From NCBI RefSeq assembly GCF_029960785.1, contig NZ_JASBQE010000021.1, positions 1-64,000 of the forward strand: a DNA stretch of 64,000 nucleotides. Reading direction: 5' to 3'. The DNA comes from Polyangium sp. 15x6. Its GTDB lineage: Bacteria; Myxococcota_A; Polyangia; Polyangiales; Polyangiaceae. This document shows positions 4,832-29,677 of the stretch, piece by piece. Within the stretch, counting starts at the first letter, position 1; the number at the start of each line of letters is the position of its first letter. The notes under the pieces are model-generated. The model was not told the DNA's origin and made no database searches. It saw nothing but the letters and a program-made list of their open reading frames with translations. Made by a program: the position numbers and the translations under genes.

Positions 4832-6775
4832 GTGAGTGTCCTTGTCTTGGTCCTGTACGTGGGGCTCGGGATCGCGGTCCTCGCGCTCGTGCCAGGGATC
4901 TCGGTGATCGGGCGCGAGGCGCTGCGGAGGCGGCGCGAGCGGCGCGCGGTCGAGCGGCTCGCGGCCGCGCGGAAGGTGCTCTCGAGGCTACGCGCGGAGC
5001 CGGCCGCGCGTGTGGCGAGATCCCTCGCGCAAGGCTTCGATCGGAGCACGATTCAGGCCGTCCTGGAGCAGGCGCTCGACGAAGAGGCGCGGTGCGCGCT
5101 GGTATGCGAGGAGCTCGGGCTGCGCGCGGCCTGGGAGCGCACGCTGCGCGCGTCGAAATCGTGGAACGAGCGGGCTCACGCGGCGCGAATGCTCGGCAAG
5201 CTCGGCGTCGCGTCGGCGAGCCCCGTGCTCGCGTCGGCGCTCGCGGACCCGCACGAGGATACGACGGTGCGGCTCGCGGCGGCCGAGGCCATTGGATCCA
5301 TCCCGGACATCGCGGTCCTGCCGCACCTCTGCGAGGCGCTCGCGTCGCAGGGCGAGGGGGGCGCGAAGGTCGTGGCCGAGGCGCTCATTTCGTTCGGATC
5401 GGACGCGGTGCGGCCGCTCGTGGGGATGCTCGACGACGAGCGCGCGCAGGCGCGGACCTGGGCCGCGCGGGTGCTCGGGAAAATCGGGGATCCAGGGGCG
5501 ACATTGCCGCTCGTGGCGCAGCTCGGCGACGGCAATGCGGCGGCGAGGACGGCCGCGGCGGAGGCGCTCGGCCATATCGGAGATCTGCGGGCGACGCGGC
5601 CGCTCGTGAGCGCGGTCCTCGGCGATCCGTCGAGCGCGGTGCGCGCGCGGGCCGCGGCGGCGCTCGCGCGTGTGGGCGACGAGGAGGTCGTCGGGACGCT
5701 CGTGGCCACGCTCGGCGATCCGGATCCGGAGGTGCGATCGCGGGCGGTCGACGCGCTCGCGGCATTGTCGCCGAAGGATCGGTCGGCCATCGAGCGGGCG
5801 CTCTTCGATCCGTGCGACGACGTGCGGCGGAGCGCGGCGCTCGCGATGGATCGGCTCGGCACGGTATCGGCCTGGGCCGCGGCGCTCGGCGAGGGGACGG
5901 CCGAGGGGCGCGCGGCGGCGCGCGCGGCGCTCGTGGCGGTGGGGCGCGCGGGTTTGTCGGAGGCGATCGTTGCGGCGGCGCGGCACGAGTCGGGGGCGGT
6001 GCGCGCGGGCGTGTTCCGGATCCTCGGGGAGATCGGCTCGGCGCGGCACGCGGCGTCGCTCGGGCGAGCGCTCGACGACGCGGCCGTGGAGGCGCGCGCG
6101 TGCGCGGCGCTCGCGCTCGGGCGGATCGGCGGCGAGCAGGCGATCACGATGCTCGGAAGGGAAAAACCCGAGGGCATCACGCCGGCGGCGTGGATCGTGG
6201 CGCGCGCGCTCGCCGGCGTGGAGACGTGGGTCGCCGAGGCGAGGGCATTCATGGCGGATTCGACCTCCGCGGCGGCGGCGCGGGCCGTCTGCGAGGCGGA
6301 GGGCGAGGCGATCGCGCGGGCGTTCGAGGCGAAGGTGGGCGCGGTGTGTCCGGCCGAGAGTGGCCCGAGGACGGTGACGCTGTCGCGCTTCGCCATTGCG
6401 GCGCGGCGCGCGGCGCGGCTCGAGGATCGGCTGCGGGCCATTCTGGAGCTCTCGGAGCGGCGAGGGCCCGAGGCGACGGCGGCGCTCGCGGAGGTCGTGG
6501 TGAGCGATCCATCCGCGGAAGCGCGTGGGCTCGCGGCGCGGAGCCTCGCGCAGGCGGAGGAGCGGTGGCTCGCGGTGCCGGCGCTCGTGCGGGCGCTGTC
6601 GGATCCGTCGCCGGAGGTGGTCTTCGAGGCGTCCCAGGCGCTCGGGCTCGGGGGCGCGAGCGAGGACAAGAAGGGGCGGCGATCCTCGGAGGCGGCGCCG
6701 TCCGAGCGGAATGGTGCGTCCCGACGAACAACCGGAAAGCTGTTCCTGGAAGAGGCCGGCGAGACCGCTGCTTGA
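4832..6775 (+). CDS. Membrane-anchored HEAT-repeat protein
   Basis: A 647-residue protein with one N-terminal TM helix (about 3-27), a basic stretch, then many tandem HEAT/PBS-lyase-like helical repeats of about 31 residues with the recurring pattern VR..AA.ALG.IGD..A...L. This fold is a protein-binding scaffold with no catalytic residues. I chose the GTG at 4832 (AGGGAG upstream) because the TM helix begins directly after it. Its tight spacing to the upstream glycosyltransferase suggests it organises or regulates the synthase. GT2, HEAT and YaiO-like genes do occur together in polysaccharide loci, but that role here is inference. Confidence 0.8.
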   Translation: MSVLVLVLYVGLGIAVLALVPGISVIGREALRRRRERRAVERLAAARKVLSRLRAEPAARVARSLAQGFDRSTIQAVLEQALDEEARCALVCEELGLRAAWERTLRASKSWNERAHAARMLGKLGVASASPVLASALADPHEDTTVRLAAAEAIGSIPDIAVLPHLCEALASQGEGGAKVVAEALISFGSDAVRPLVGMLDDERAQARTWAARVLGKIGDPGATLPLVAQLGDGNAAARTAAAEALGHIGDLRATRPLVSAVLGDPSSAVRARAAAALARVGDEEVVGTLVATLGDPDPEVRSRAVDALAALSPKDRSAIERALFDPCDDVRRSAALAMDRLGTVSAWAAALGEGTAEGRAAARAALVAVGRAGLSEAIVAAARHESGAVRAGVFRILGEIGSARHAASLGRALDDAAVEARACAALALGRIGGEQAITMLGREKPEGITPAAWIVARALAGVETWVAEARAFMADSTSAAAARAVCEAEGEAIARAFEAKVGAVCPAESGPRTVTLSRFAIAARRAARLEDRLRAILELSERRGPEATAALAEVVVSDPSAEARGLAARSLAQAEERWLAVPALVRALSDPSPEVVFEASQALGLGGASEDKKGRRSSEAAPSERNGASRRTTGKLFLEEAGETAA

Positions 6776-7094: not shown

Positions 7095-9902
7095 ATGCGA
7101 TCCGTGCTCCGTGGATTGAAAGGCTTGGTTTTCTTGGGGACCGCGCTCGGCGCGACGTTCTCGCAGAACGCGGAGGCGGCCGTGGCGGCGCCTGCCGCGT
7201 CACCTTATACGTTGTTCGAAAGCGGCCAGGTCCGTCCGGTCGCGATGTCCCCGAGCGGGCACCTCTTGTTCGTGGTCAATACACCCGACAATCGCCTCGA
7301 GATCTTCCGGCTCACATATAGCGGCATCCTCGAGCATACCGGCTCCGTGCCCGTCGGACTCGAGCCCGTCGCGGTCGCGGCGCGCAGCAACAGCGAGGTC
7401 TGGGTGGTCAACCACCTGTCCGACAGCGTGAGCATCGTCAACGTACACGGCGCGGGCAGGGGCTCCGTGGTGCGCACGCTCCACGTCGGCGACGAGCCGC
7501 GCGACATCGTCTTCGCCGGGCCGAGCAAGAGCCGCGCGTTCATCACGACGGCCCACCGCGGCCAGAATGCGCCCTTCGACCCTCAACTCACGACGCCCGG
7601 CGTGGGCCGCGCGGACGTCTGGGTCTTCGACGCCTACAACCTCGGCACGACGATGGGCGGCACGCCGCTCAAGATCCTGAACCTCTTCGGCGACACGCCC
7701 CGCGCCCTCGCGGCCACGCCCGACGGCTCGCGCGTCTATGCGGCCGTCTTTCATTCGGGCAATCGCACGACCATCGTCGACGAATCCCTGGTGCCGAACG
7801 GCGGCGAGGACGCAGGCGGCGTGCCCGGGCCGAACACCAATTTCCAGGGGATCCCCGCGCCCGAGGTCGGCGTCCTCGTGAAGCACGACGGCACGTCCTG
7901 GCGGGACGTGCTCGGCCGCCCCTGGGACGACGCGGTGAATTTCTCGCTGCCCGACAAGGACGTCTTCGTCATCGACGCCAACGCGAACCCGCCCAAGCAG
8001 CTCGCGGGCGCCGCGGGATCCTTCGCGGGCGTGGGGACGATCCTCTTCAACATGGCCGTCAATCCCGTCAATGGGAGGGTGTACGTCAGCAATACCGAGG
8101 CCCGCAACGACCTGCGCTTCGAGGGGGATGGGCTCTTCGCCGGCGAGACGCTGCAAGGCCACCTTCACGAGAGCCGGATCACGGTGCTCGGCCCCGGGGG
8201 CGTCGCCCCGCGGCACCTCAACAAGCACATCGATTACGATGTCCGGCCGGCGCCCCTTTCCGTGAACCAGAAGAGCCTCGCCCAGCCGCTCGGTATGGCC
8301 GTGTCGAACTCCGGCACGACCCTGTACGTGGCCGCGTTCGGGTCCTCGAAGATCGGCGTGTTCAATACGGCCGCGCTGGAGAACAACAGCTTCGTTCCCA
8401 GCGCGGCGAGCCACATCACGCTGAGCGGCGGCGGACCGACGGGCATGGTCCTCGACGAGGGCCGGGGGCGCATGTACGTCCTCACGCGCTTCGACAATGG
8501 GCTCTCCGTCGTGAATCTGTCGACGCAAAAGGAAATCGCCCACATCGAGATGTACAGCCCCGAGCCGGAGAGCATCGTGGAGGGGCGGGCTCTCCTTTAC
8601 GACGCGCGGCTCTCCTCCAGCAATGGCGAGGCGGCCTGCGGGAGCTGCCACGTCTTCGGCGACATGGACGACCTCTCCTGGGATCTCGGCAATCCCGACG
8701 GAACGGTGCTGAACAACCCCGGCCCGTTCAAGGGGCCCTTGTTCGTCGATCCCGATTTCCATCCGATGAAGGGTCCGATGGCGACCCAGAGCCTGCGCGG
8801 AATGGCAAACCACGGCCCGATGCACTGGCGCGCCGACCGTACGGGCGGCAATGACGAGCCGAGCGCGCAGCCGGGCGAGGGAGCGTTCGACGAGGAGGCC
8901 GCCTTCAAGAACTTCAACCCCGCGTTCGTGGGTTTGCTCGGCCGGACGGCGCAGCTCAGCAACGAGGACATGCAGAAGTTCACGGACTTCATCCTCCAGG
9001 TCGCCTATCCGCCGAACCCGATCCGGAACCTCGACAATTCGCTGACGCCCGCGCAGCAGGCAGGTCGCGATTTCTTCTTCAACACGCCGGTCATCGGCCC
9101 GGCTGCCTGCGCGACGTGCCATCCGAGCAATCCCAATGCGAACCCGGATGATCGCTTCCCGGGGTTCTTCGGGGGCGATGGATTCTCGGGGTTCGGCGGC
9201 GCGACGCAGATCTTCAAGAACGTGCACCTGCGCAACGAGTACCAGAAGGTCGGCATGTTCGGCTCCGCCGTCGCTTTCGGCTCCGAGCAGCCCGATCCCT
9301 TCATGGGCGACCAGATCCGCGGCTTCGGCTTCACCCACGACGGGAGCACCCCGACGTTGTTCCACCGGAGCGGCGTCTTCGACGCGGGCACCCCCGTCCT
9401 CCCCGAGATCCTTCCCGACTTGATCACGGTCCAGCCTGGGATCCCCGTCGGCGCCGCGGGGGACCAGATCAAGCGCAACATGGAAGCGTATCAGCTCGCG
9501 TTCGACACGAACTTCGCGCCCATCGTCGGGCAACAGGTGACGCTCACCGTGGCGAACCAGGCGTCGGCCGCGGCGCGTATCGAGCTTCTGCTGCAGCGCG
9601 CGGACGCCCTCGAATGTGATCTCGTGGCGAAGGGGGCCTCGGGCGCCTATTCGGACGTGGAGGTCGGCTACCTCTACCTCCCGGAGATCCAGCGCTTCGC
9701 CGTCGATCGGCAGGCGATCGCGCCGGTCCCCGACGCGATCTTGCGTTCGGTCTACCTCGGGACCAACAAGTCGCTCACGTATACCTGCGTGCCGCCCGGC
9801 TCCGGCGTGCGCATCGGTATCGATCGGGATCTCGACGGATACCTCGACGGCGACGAGACAGCCGCGGGCAGCAATCCCGCCAATCCCCTGAGCACGCCCT
9901 GA
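7095..9902 (+). CDS. Secreted beta-propeller protein with two c-type heme sites
   Basis: A 935-residue exported protein. A signal peptide covers about residues 1-32 ([15 protein letters not shown]...). About 450 residues of YncE/surface-layer-like beta-propeller follow ([25 protein letters not shown] and similar blades). The C-terminal region carries two heme-binding CxxCH motifs, CGSCH near residue 515 and CATCH near 672. This resembles di-heme peroxidase or oxidase-type cytochromes fused to a propeller. The ATG at 7095 was chosen for its GGGAGG ribosome binding site five bases upstream. The acceptor and substrate are unknown; a periplasmic or surface redox role is inferred. A hairpin and repeat copy B follow. 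Confidence 0.8.
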
Positions 9903-9918
9903 AGCGCCGTTTTCGCCC

Positions 9919-9943
9919 GAGGGGGACGCCTCGCGTCCCCCTC
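9919..9943 (+). terminator. Hairpin after the propeller/cytochrome gene
   Basis: GAGGGGGACGC pairs perfectly with GCGTCCCCCTC over an 11-bp stem with loop CTC, 17 bp after the stop codon at 9902. No T-tract follows, so this is either a GC-type terminator or another 3'-end structure. It precedes repeat copy B and is not part of it. Confidence 0.5.
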
Positions 9944-9986
9944 TCGTCCGGGCACTGAGCATTGGTTTCATCTGGGGGCCGTTGCG

Positions 9987-10091
9987 CTGGGGCGTTGCCC
10001 CAGGCCCCAGCAGGGGCTGTCCGCCCCTGCACCCGGACCAGCGCAAGCGCTGGACTCGGGGTCGATGAACTGCGCGATGCGCAGTTCATCG
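9987..10091 (-). repeat. Four-hairpin 3' element, copy B
   Basis: Full 105-bp copy in reverse orientation, 84 bp after the stop of the plus-strand propeller gene. Read on the plus strand: hairpin 4 CTGGGGC/GCCCCAG (9987-10003), hairpin 3 GCAGGGGC/GCCCCTGC around TGTCC (10010-10030), hairpin 2 CCAGCGC/GCGCTGG (10038-10053), hairpin 1 CGATGAACTGCGC/GCGCAGTTCATCG around GAT (10063-10091). All stems are perfect. It shares its subtype with copy G. Confidence 0.9.
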
Positions 10092-10106
10092 AACGGGCCG
10101 GGTTGT

Positions 10107-10407
10107 ACACGTGTCAGGTGGTGGTGCTGTGCCGGCGAGGGGTCTGACACGTGTGTCGATCGCGAGAGCCGTTCGGGTCGGGCGGATGACACGTGTGGCA
10201 GCGAGCGGATCCGTGCTCGTCGCTGCATGGGCACACGTGGCAGGCCGTCCCGGCGCTCGGAAAGGGCGGGGGACACACGTGGAGAGGTCCCGCGCGGGTG
10301 TGGCTCGGCGAGGTGACACGTGTGGAACATGGCGATCCCGGTCCGCAAGAGCGGGTGACACGCAGGACAGGTGCGCGGGGAGGCCAGGGAGACCGAGTGA
10401 CCGGTCG
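10107..10407. repeat. Array of CACGTG-centred palindromes with ~42-bp period
   Basis: CACGTG cores begin at 10108, 10148, 10190, 10234, 10276 and 10317. A degenerate CACGCA at 10359 and a TGACCGGTC-like unit at 10398 continue the series. Steps are 40, 42, 44, 42, 41 and 42 bp, about four helical turns. The fullest sites read TGACACGTGTGG. The sequences between cores are largely unrelated, although some hold their own short palindromes such as CCCGCGCGGG. The array lies between the 3' ends of two convergent genes and between repeat copies B and C. The ~12-bp repeats are too short for a CRISPR array. Candidate binding-site array; function unknown. Confidence 0.7.
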
Positions 10408-10455
10408 GTCTCATGGCAAAGGCGCAGCGCTAGCCTTTCAACCGAGAAGTCCCGT

Positions 10456-10559
10456 TGGAAGAACTGCGCTCCGCGCAGTTCTTCCACCCTCGGTCCAGGC
10501 CGTGCCTGGTCCGGGTCGAGGGGCGGACAGCCCCCGCGGGGCCCGGGGCAGAGCCCCGG
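10456..10559 (+). repeat. Four-hairpin 3' element, copy C
   Basis: Hairpin 1 has a perfect 14-bp stem, TGGAAGAACTGCGC/GCGCAGTTCTTCCA, with loop TCC (10456-10486). Hairpin 2 is CCAGGC/GCCTGG (10495-10509), hairpin 3 GGGGC/GCCCC around GGACA (10520-10534), hairpin 4 CCGGGGC/GCCCCGG around AGA (10543-10559). It ends 29 bp from the stop of the minus-strand YaiO-like gene, which reads hairpin 4 first. Same subtype as copy A. Confidence 0.9.
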
Positions 10560-10588
10560 CGCGGCGGTCCGGCCCCCCGCGCCCGCAT

Positions 10589-11932
10589 TCACCAGCGCAC
10601 GAGCGCGCCGATCTCGAAGGTGTGCAGCGCGGCGCGCTCGGCGCCGGGAGGCCCACGGAACGTGAGGCTGTAGAGCGGCATCACGCGCAAAAAATCGTAC
10701 GGCCAGAGGTCCGCGCCGACGTGCACGGTATCCGTGACGAGGTCGAGGATCTGGAACGCAGCCGGGAATCGCTCGGCCTCGGCGCCATGCGCATATCCGG
10801 CCCGGAGCGCGAACCACGGCAGAAACGTGCGGCCCGCCGAGAACGAGAATGCATGCACGAGCCGGCTTTCGCTCGCGCCCTGCGGATCCTCGACGCGGAC
10901 GTGCGTGAGCCAGTACGTGGCGTCGAGCCGGAGTTGGTCGCCGATCGTGACGCCGAGCGTGGGGCTCGCCCCGTGCGTGGCGATGCCGCCCGTGTATCGA
11001 CGGTACGTGTACGAAAGACCGCTCGTGAGCCACGGGCGGATCGGCGCCGTGCCGTGCGCGCGGAGGCGGAGCATCGGGACACTCTCGGCCGGCGCGCCGA
11101 ACGCCGCTTCGCCGCCCAGGGAAAAACCATGCCCGAAGAGCCACGTGGCCCGGCCGCCCCAGGTCGCGCCGTAGGCCCAGCCGCCCGATGCGGTCGAGGG
11201 GCGGCCGCCATGCTCGGTCTCGACGCCGAGGATGAGCCTGCGCCACGCCTGCGAGACCTCGACCTCGACCTGCCCGAGCGTCGGCATGGGCGCGGGAAAA
11301 ACGAGGACCCGTGTGGTGACCCGCGCATACCCCGTGGACAGACGCCGCGCGAGCGCGCGGAGTTCGGTGTTCCCCCCGGACGCGGCATACGCTCGCTCCG
11401 CGAGCCCGTGCGCCGTCGTGAGGTCGCCCCGCGCGTATTCGAGCCGCGCTCGGCAAGCGAGCAGGGTAGGGGAGTCCTTGCGTTTCGCCGCGTCGAGGAC
11501 TGCCTCGGCCTCGTCCCAGAGGCCTTGCCAGGTGAGCACGTCGAAGAGGGCGGCGCGGACGTCGTCGTCGTCGGGGTGGCGCGAGAGGACGTCACGATAA
11601 GCGGCCGCCGCGCGCGCGTGATGCCCGTCCCACGCGTCGAGCCGCGCGAGCCCGGTTCGCGCCTCGTCGTCCTGCGGATCCCGCGCGAGGAGCACCTCGT
11701 AGCGTCGCCGCGCCGCGGGCCTATCCCCGCCCCACGCCGCGCGCCTTGCCTCGTCGAGCAGCGCGTCGCGATCGTCGCCGAACACCTCGCCGCCGTGGCG
11801 CGGAGGCGCTGCCGTGCAGGACGCAAGCACGAGCAGGAGGGTCGCCCAGAGAGGGCCCGCGAGCGCGCGGCGGCCCAGGCACAAAGCCCGTGCACGGTGG
11901 CTGCGCACGGACCGAGCCTCGCACATCCACAT
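10589..11932 (-). CDS. YaiO-like lipoprotein: TPR domain plus outer-membrane beta-barrel
   Basis: 447 residues. A long basic N-terminus leads to a hydrophobic segment ending in LASC, a lipobox with Cys near residue 39. Residues about 50-190 are TPR-like helical repeats (ARDPQDDEARTGLARLDAW, LSRHPDDDDVRAALFDVL). Residues about 205-447 are alternating beta-strands ending in an aromatic-rich LVRW, typical of an outer-membrane barrel. The TPR-plus-barrel order is that of the YaiO family, linked to export of polysaccharide made by GT2 synthases. The start is uncertain; an in-frame GTG eight codons in is possible. The family call is from pattern recognition. Confidence 0.65.
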   Translation of the reverse strand: MWMCEARSVRSHRARALCLGRRALAGPLWATLLLVLASCTAAPPRHGGEVFGDDRDALLDEARRAAWGGDRPAARRRYEVLLARDPQDDEARTGLARLDAWDGHHARAAAAYRDVLSRHPDDDDVRAALFDVLTWQGLWDEAEAVLDAAKRKDSPTLLACRARLEYARGDLTTAHGLAERAYAASGGNTELRALARRLSTGYARVTTRVLVFPAPMPTLGQVEVEVSQAWRRLILGVETEHGGRPSTASGGWAYGATWGGRATWLFGHGFSLGGEAAFGAPAESVPMLRLRAHGTAPIRPWLTSGLSYTYRRYTGGIATHGASPTLGVTIGDQLRLDATYWLTHVRVEDPQGASESRLVHAFSFSAGRTFLPWFALRAGYAHGAEAERFPAAFQILDLVTDTVHVGADLWPYDFLRVMPLYSLTFRGPPGAERAALHTFEIGALVRW

Positions 11933-29572: not shown

Positions 29573-29677
29573 CGATGAACTGCGCATCGCGCAGTTCATC
29601 GACCCCGAGTCCAGCGCTTGCGCTGGTCCGGGTCCAGGGGCGGATAGCCCCTGGTGGGGCCTGGGGCAACGCCCCAG
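29573..29677 (+). repeat. Four-hairpin 3' element, copy G
   Basis: Hairpin 1 is CGATGAACTGCGC/GCGCAGTTCATCG around ATC (29573-29601). Hairpin 2 is CCAGCGC/GCGCTGG (29611-29626), hairpin 3 CCAGGGGC/GCCCCTGG around GGATA (29634-29654), hairpin 4 CTGGGGC/GCCCCAG around AAC (29661-29677). It lies 26 bp beyond the stop of the minus-strand hydrolase gene. Same subtype as copy B, about 19.5 kb away. Confidence 0.9.

Follow-up and report, generated by a model that had tools for sequence, protein, structure and literature searches.

The intergenic region between two convergent genes of Polyangium sp. 15x6 harbours a short palindrome repeated at almost constant steps. The question it raises is what exactly is repeated there, and whether the repetition provides sites for a protein or is a tandem repeat in decay. 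The window considered here is the whole stretch of 64,000 nucleotides from contig NZ_JASBQE010000021.1. The array lies between a lactonase-type beta-propeller gene on the forward strand (7095..9902), which also has a di-haem peroxidase match below cut-off and ends 201 bp before the array, and a convergent TPR-domain gene on the reverse strand (10589..11932), which ends 178 bp after it. The initial annotation had placed the array between these gene ends and between two flanking repeat copies, B and C, and both placements are right. The six CACGTG cores that it reported at 40-44 bp steps are found exactly at 10108, 10148, 10190, 10234, 10276 and 10317, with steps of 40, 42, 44, 42 and 41 bp. In the window as a whole CACGTG occurs 31 times against 16.7 expected, a count reached in 0 of 100 shuffles. 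CACGTG is nevertheless a by-product, and the true repeated site is a 14-bp dyad, TGMCACRYGTGKCA, of which positions 10103-10369 hold seven copies. Their starts (10103, 10145, 10187, 10229, 10271, 10314 and 10356) are separated by 42, 42, 42, 42, 43 and 42 bp, a better regularity than first stated; the CACGTG steps of 40 and 44 bp arise because a dyad centre of AC or GT moves CACGTG by 2 bp. The units, assigned to no strand, are TTGTACACGTGTCA (10103..10116), TGACACGTGTGTCG (10145..10158), TGACACGTGTGGCA (10187..10200), GGGCACACGTGGCA (10229..10242), GGACACACGTGGAG (10271..10284), TGACACGTGTGGAA (10314..10327, after the sole 43-bp step) and TGACACGCAGGACA (10356..10369); the third is the sole exact consensus site of the window array. 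All seven score above 99% of background with held-out matrices. Of the two degenerate units that had been added to the six cores, the one at 10356 is thus a good site, whereas the other, a possible eighth unit without strand at 10398..10411, does not score above background.

The consensus site, TGMCAC-RY-GTGKCA, is a 14-bp dyad recurring at a step of 42 bp, i.e. four helical turns. Among 56 units from seven arrays, the centre is RY in 54 (AC 20, GT 19, GC 10, AT 5) and CT in 2, and the M/K preferences are symmetric across the dyad. A second, weaker dyad, GR|YC, lies 21 bp (two turns) from the core and is framed by C (93%) and G (84%). Most steps in the arrays are 42 bp (106 of 126), 19 being 43 bp and one 41 bp, in scans that admitted only 41-43 bp. 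Copy number is seven to nine units, mostly eight, in the 18 scored arrays, a set that omits L078 (three units), L226 (two to three units) and L092 (the same place as L224); the weak L232 and L233 are excluded from the array count. The strongest autocorrelation falls at 42 or 43 rather than 21 in 15 of 17 regions, the 21-bp substructure being seen in the profile. With held-out matrices, 139 of 141 unit positions in the 18 arrays score above 99% of background, as do 7 of the 8 window unit positions with a matrix trained without the window's locus group, compared with 8 of 108 flanking control positions, each the best of three offsets. The unit positions were preset by an earlier scan, and the held-out scoring therefore tests the motif and not the position. 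Non-coding placement, a constant step and at least four units hold for the arrays, with gene calls from a crude caller.

Six genomes of the genus (G000-G005, G000 being the own genome) were compared, and related arrays are present in five of them. In G005 no profile match falls below E 0.026, and the array is absent at the two loci examined. The dyad TGMCACRYGTGKCA is common to loci in G000 and G003, and a shifted form occurs in G001 and G004. At locus I, G000, G001, G002, G003 and G004 have the array in the gap that separates a gene of 541 residues, whose TonB_C match is weak and below cut-off, from one of about 400. Locus II has its array between a 4-alpha-glucanotransferase gene and a Ser/Thr kinase gene in G000, G003 and G004; in G001 the array stands behind the same 4-alpha-glucanotransferase, and in G002 about one unit is left. 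The locus III array precedes a PAS/STAS gene in G000, G001, G002, G003 and G004, and is reduced to three units in G004 and two to three in G001. The locus IV array, present in G000 and G003, adjoins a LysR gene. The Pfam assignments of these locus-flanking genes come from the G000 proteins alone. The genes around the array are convergent at locus IV in G003 and at the window copy; at loci I-III the array sits between tandem genes, so that the convergent setting first described is no general feature. Within G000, near-complete copies lie on contigs C173, C225 and C239, and divergent arrays on C22, C260, C266 and C275. The near-complete copies and the window array (L069, L070, L071 and the window) are 86-91% alike, and among these four an ortholog in G003 was found only for L071 on C239. 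For this reason the window, C173 and C225 arrays are taken as extra copies, probably of the locus IV array, which makes the window array probably a G000-specific extra copy of an array conserved in a sister species. The window and C173 copies share 582 bp, flanking hairpin repeats included, in the manner of a cassette. A comparison of window positions 9990-10560 with phages and plasmids gave no match.

The reading that we favour, and to which we give about an even chance, is that of a helically phased array of about eight sites, at which a putative dimeric DNA-binding protein would play an architectural or insulating part. Pairing across the dyad bears on it directly. In 64 units, pairing at positions ±4.5 is 0.31 against 0.37 under independence and at the centre 0.30 against 0.49 expected, i.e. 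worse, with a slight excess at certain positions farther out (0.47 against 0.35 at ±11.5 and ±16.5). As pairing is not above independence, the core is read as two independently recognised half-sites and not as a stem; halves that vary independently, without a base-pairing signature, agree with a site contacted by a protein along one DNA face. The initial proposal of protein sites on one DNA face is strengthened to this extent, and protein binding, cooperative binding and the function of the array are what we infer beyond it. Putative dimers would be seated on one face, one per 14-bp dyad, and would contact their neighbours four turns away, so that about 340 bp could be stiffened or wrapped into a nucleoprotein. 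Such an assembly might separate neighbouring transcription units or anchor nucleoid structure. An architectural or insulating effect is considered most likely because at conserved loci the array fills the gap behind a stop codon. Additionally, C occupies the fourth half-site position in 92 of 96 halves in G000 and G003, 26 of 30 in G002 and 54 of 72 in G001 and G004 (loci I-III), a drift of the kind that a trans-acting partner might cause and that shared descent could also explain. Counting against the binding-site reading, arrays have been lost or shortened at some loci (locus II in G002, locus III in G001 and G004, and G005).

The main rival is a selfish or neutral 42-bp satellite, which would have arisen by slippage, been copied between loci and decayed, the core reflecting common ancestry; we regard it as possible, if somewhat unlikely. 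L229 (C275 of G000) is a near-perfect 42-bp tandem with an autocorrelation of 0.89, and L224 is a partly homogenised one (0.66). On this ground the arrays are tandem repeats at various stages of decay, in which the spacing and the symmetric core persist through turnover, and the initial opposition between such an array and a decayed tandem repeat falls away. Differences also affect 1367 of 5355 aligned positions within the arrays and 286 of 1757 in the remainder of the intergenic regions that hold them (16 overlapping pairs, noisy). The arrays therefore evolve faster than the adjacent intergenic DNA, as a satellite would. There is no sign of indel avoidance within them in these 16 overlapping pairs, gap rates being 12.3 against 15.0 per 100 substitutions. 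Both comparisons omit locus II of G001 as well as locus III of G001 and G004. The finding of a G003 ortholog for just one of the four closely similar copies favours the satellite too, as does locus I of G005, where a different 43-bp repeat occupies the place of the 42-bp array of the other species. Against the satellite stand the dyad-symmetric degenerate preferences (M/K, RY) and the identities within arrays: these reach 0.60-0.85 for cores, while spacers, at 0.33-0.46, lie slightly higher than the 0.31-0.36 that composition alone would give. The narrow copy number in the 18 scored arrays is likewise unlike free slippage, yet three other loci are reduced. Between species the core excess is modest: matching units are 0.57-0.98 identical in spacers and 0.69-0.93 in cores, and 13 overlapping comparisons sum to 775 of 990 core and 1629 of 2376 spacer positions, with spacers more conserved than cores in 2 of the 13. 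In these comparisons the unit register was picked by best spacer identity, and the sums omit one alternative orientation and one paralog row. The initial annotation had held the spacers to be unconserved, which does not stand: they share the mid-spacer dyad and are preserved between species almost as well as the cores. Sister genomes do carry such arrays, alike in step and core. As separate observations, the L229 array (5780-6045) has the core CTCCACGTGTGGAG and is possibly a young member of the family, and the G005 repeat (L253, just past 3117) is unrelated, with about two and a half units and an internal palindrome.

A multi-site operator of the downstream gene is improbable. It would agree with loci I-III, where the arrays lie upstream of a gene start with gaps of 40-178 bp and a Ser/Thr kinase and a PAS/STAS protein are among the genes. 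Opposed to it are the convergent placement of locus IV in G003 and of the window copy, the unrelated nature of the downstream genes, and the position of the arrays, 14 of 20 beginning 8-48 bp from a stop codon and farther from a start (crude gene calls). Moreover, exact consensus sites number 9, 1, 0, 3, 0 and 0 in G000 to G005, and all 13 lie inside arrays, so that no solitary site outside arrays was found in the six genomes; the reversed-consensus control has 2 matches there.

About as improbable is the reading of the arrays as repeated hairpins in transcribed RNA, forming either a 3' UTR element or an extended terminator. By eye, unit 1 at locus I coincides with a terminator-like hairpin, and of 22 strand tests of RNA folding 21 have a negative z-score; the values are, however, uneven (0.45 to -4.9), palindromes alone reduce folding energy, and pairing in the core is not kept. 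A search of Rfam with window positions 9850-10650 returned two matches, both below the gathering score and nothing above it.

Very improbable, finally, is the idea that the arrays trace a protein of 14-residue repeats with CxxCH motifs, perhaps encoded by a cytochrome gene in decay. In its favour, 42 bp equal 14 codons, an open frame in L010 reads CPACH...CHTCH..., CxxCH motifs at 14-codon spacing can be read in some matches from other genera, and L231 lacks an in-phase stop on either strand. Against it, both strands carry stops in that phase in 11 of 18 arrays, the 43-bp steps break the reading frame, differences between the orthologs L071 and L074 by codon position are 25, 19 and 14 of 112 with the third lowest (three other pairs being similar), and the L010 frame has no Pfam match. 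Protein coding was rejected on the in-phase stops, the 43-bp steps and the absent third-position bias; likewise, no conserved CxxCH reading frame of the kind that marks a multihaem cytochrome repeat gene was found. The 97-codon open frame with CxxCH that runs through the C173 array copy (L010, 844-1134) looks accidental.

At E <= 1e-5 a two-unit profile matches 5 of 108 family genomes, all Polyangium, and no array member was detected in other genera of the family, with 42 candidates per genome scored under strict filters. A looser two-site pattern (up to 2 mismatches) matches 21 of the 108 genomes, 17 of them outside the genus, and its control 12; from the printed matches, those outside the genus were judged to be GTGGCA-type repeats or CxxCH genes. 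Four of them in other genera of the family (L047, L050, L055 and L060) have CxxCH motifs 14 codons apart and are perhaps real cytochrome-type genes. A phylum scan with the triple pattern matches 3 of 377 genomes and 2 with the control, the single match outside Polyangium resembling a plain tandem repeat. In genome_contigs, the exact triple CACRYGTG at 42 bp occurs in at least 113 stretches; the main period of 113 of these is 42 in 68, 21 in 44 and 14 in one. Fifteen of the stretches, one viral and one from Polyangium, have mostly the look of plain tandem repeats. No relatedness is claimed for them because the pattern itself selects such periods. Among the matches listed, L079-L191 include 21- and 42-bp tandem repeats with CACRYGTG cores in Amycolatopsis, Bacteroidota, Planctomycetes and others. 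In G002, the reversed control (three GTGYRCAC sites 42 bp apart) has four matches on each strand, which hints at another 42-bp repeat.

Several known systems invite comparison with the arrays. Subirana and Messeguer, who reportedly treated such repeats in a further paper (J Bacteriol 2020), are the authors of the nearest class. In the excerpts consulted, they describe constant-size non-coding bacterial tandem repeats of 20-23 or 52 nt (PMC8161180; PMC6749651), constant in size and variable in sequence, published as enigmatic; there they point to the two helical turns and suggest a protein that would polymerise along DNA and depend on a constant repeat size (PMC8161180). Like those repeats, as far as the excerpts describe them, the Polyangium arrays are non-coding, several per genome and fixed in unit (42 being twice 21), with a short sequence common to most repeats of a species and differing between species. 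Unlike them, the Polyangium arrays have a step of 42 bp with strongly diverged spacers, a 14-bp dyad plus a mid-spacer dyad, about eight copies and orthologous positions. The excerpts of these accounts (PMC8161180, PMC6749651) do not mention Polyangium, and the parts of the literature searched held no description of arrays in this genus. The arrays are thus closest to the published constant-size repeats and differ as a new variant of them. The nearest functional analogue is the F plasmid centromere sopC (parS-F), which, according to the portion of its description consulted, comprises twelve repeats of 43 bp; these contain ten inverted repeats of 16 bp to which ParB binds (PMC6238139). The Polyangium arrays likewise carry inverted repeats in tandem units close to 43 bp long; by contrast with the sopC described there, they are chromosomal, several, dispersed and of about eight units, with diverged spacers and another site sequence, and membership in F-type centromeres is not claimed. 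A Pfam scan of eight proteins from the nearest flanking genes found no ParA or ParB. Chromosomal parS is a single 16-bp ParB palindrome that contains CACGTG and is centred on C|G. Array palindromes can also contain CACGTG, but are centred on R|Y and repeated; with one mismatch allowed, the parS pattern has a single occurrence each in G000 and G003, both outside arrays, and none in G002. CRISPR arrays combine repeats of about 23-50 bp, near-identical to one another, with spacers that are each unique, and this candidate was rejected, the conserved element here being a degenerate 14-bp dyad and the spacers being common to several species.

The value of the Polyangium arrays lies in their diverged spacers, which reveal the conserved parts: a 14-bp dyad per four turns, a smaller dyad at two, and about eight units. 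With them a vague class of repeats gains a concrete bait sequence and a locus that can be deleted. Read as protein sites, they suggest a landing strip for a putative DNA-binding protein and offer a testable case of puzzling bacterial repeats. A wider and rather doubtful proposal is that Polyangium chromosomes carry a few dedicated insulators, each of about eight dyads at exactly four turns holding one protein assembly behind stop codons, that the site would drift with its binder, and that the 21-, 42- and 43-bp satellites of bacteria would be of the same kind with other binders.

The window array is itself enclosed by other repeats in inverted orientation. Copy B (10043..10097, forward strand) carries the hairpin GAACTGCGCGATGCGCAGTTC and the inverted arm, copy C (10451..10505, reverse strand), the hairpin GAACTGCGCTCCGCGCAGTTC. 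Outside them lie the arms of an outer inverted repeat, at 9999..10041 on the forward strand (with GGGGCGGACAGCCCC on the reverse strand) and at 10506..10548 on the reverse strand (GGGGCGGACAGCCCC). The hairpin repeat GAACTGCGC-N3-GCGCAGTTC recurs in the window at 1-21, 10067-10087, 10461-10481 and 29577-29597, four matches against 0.15 expected. Its companion motif GGGGCGGACAGCCCC has eight matches (up to 2 mismatches) against 0.75 expected, at 61, 3999, 10013, 10520, 12093, 25632, 25851 and 29637.
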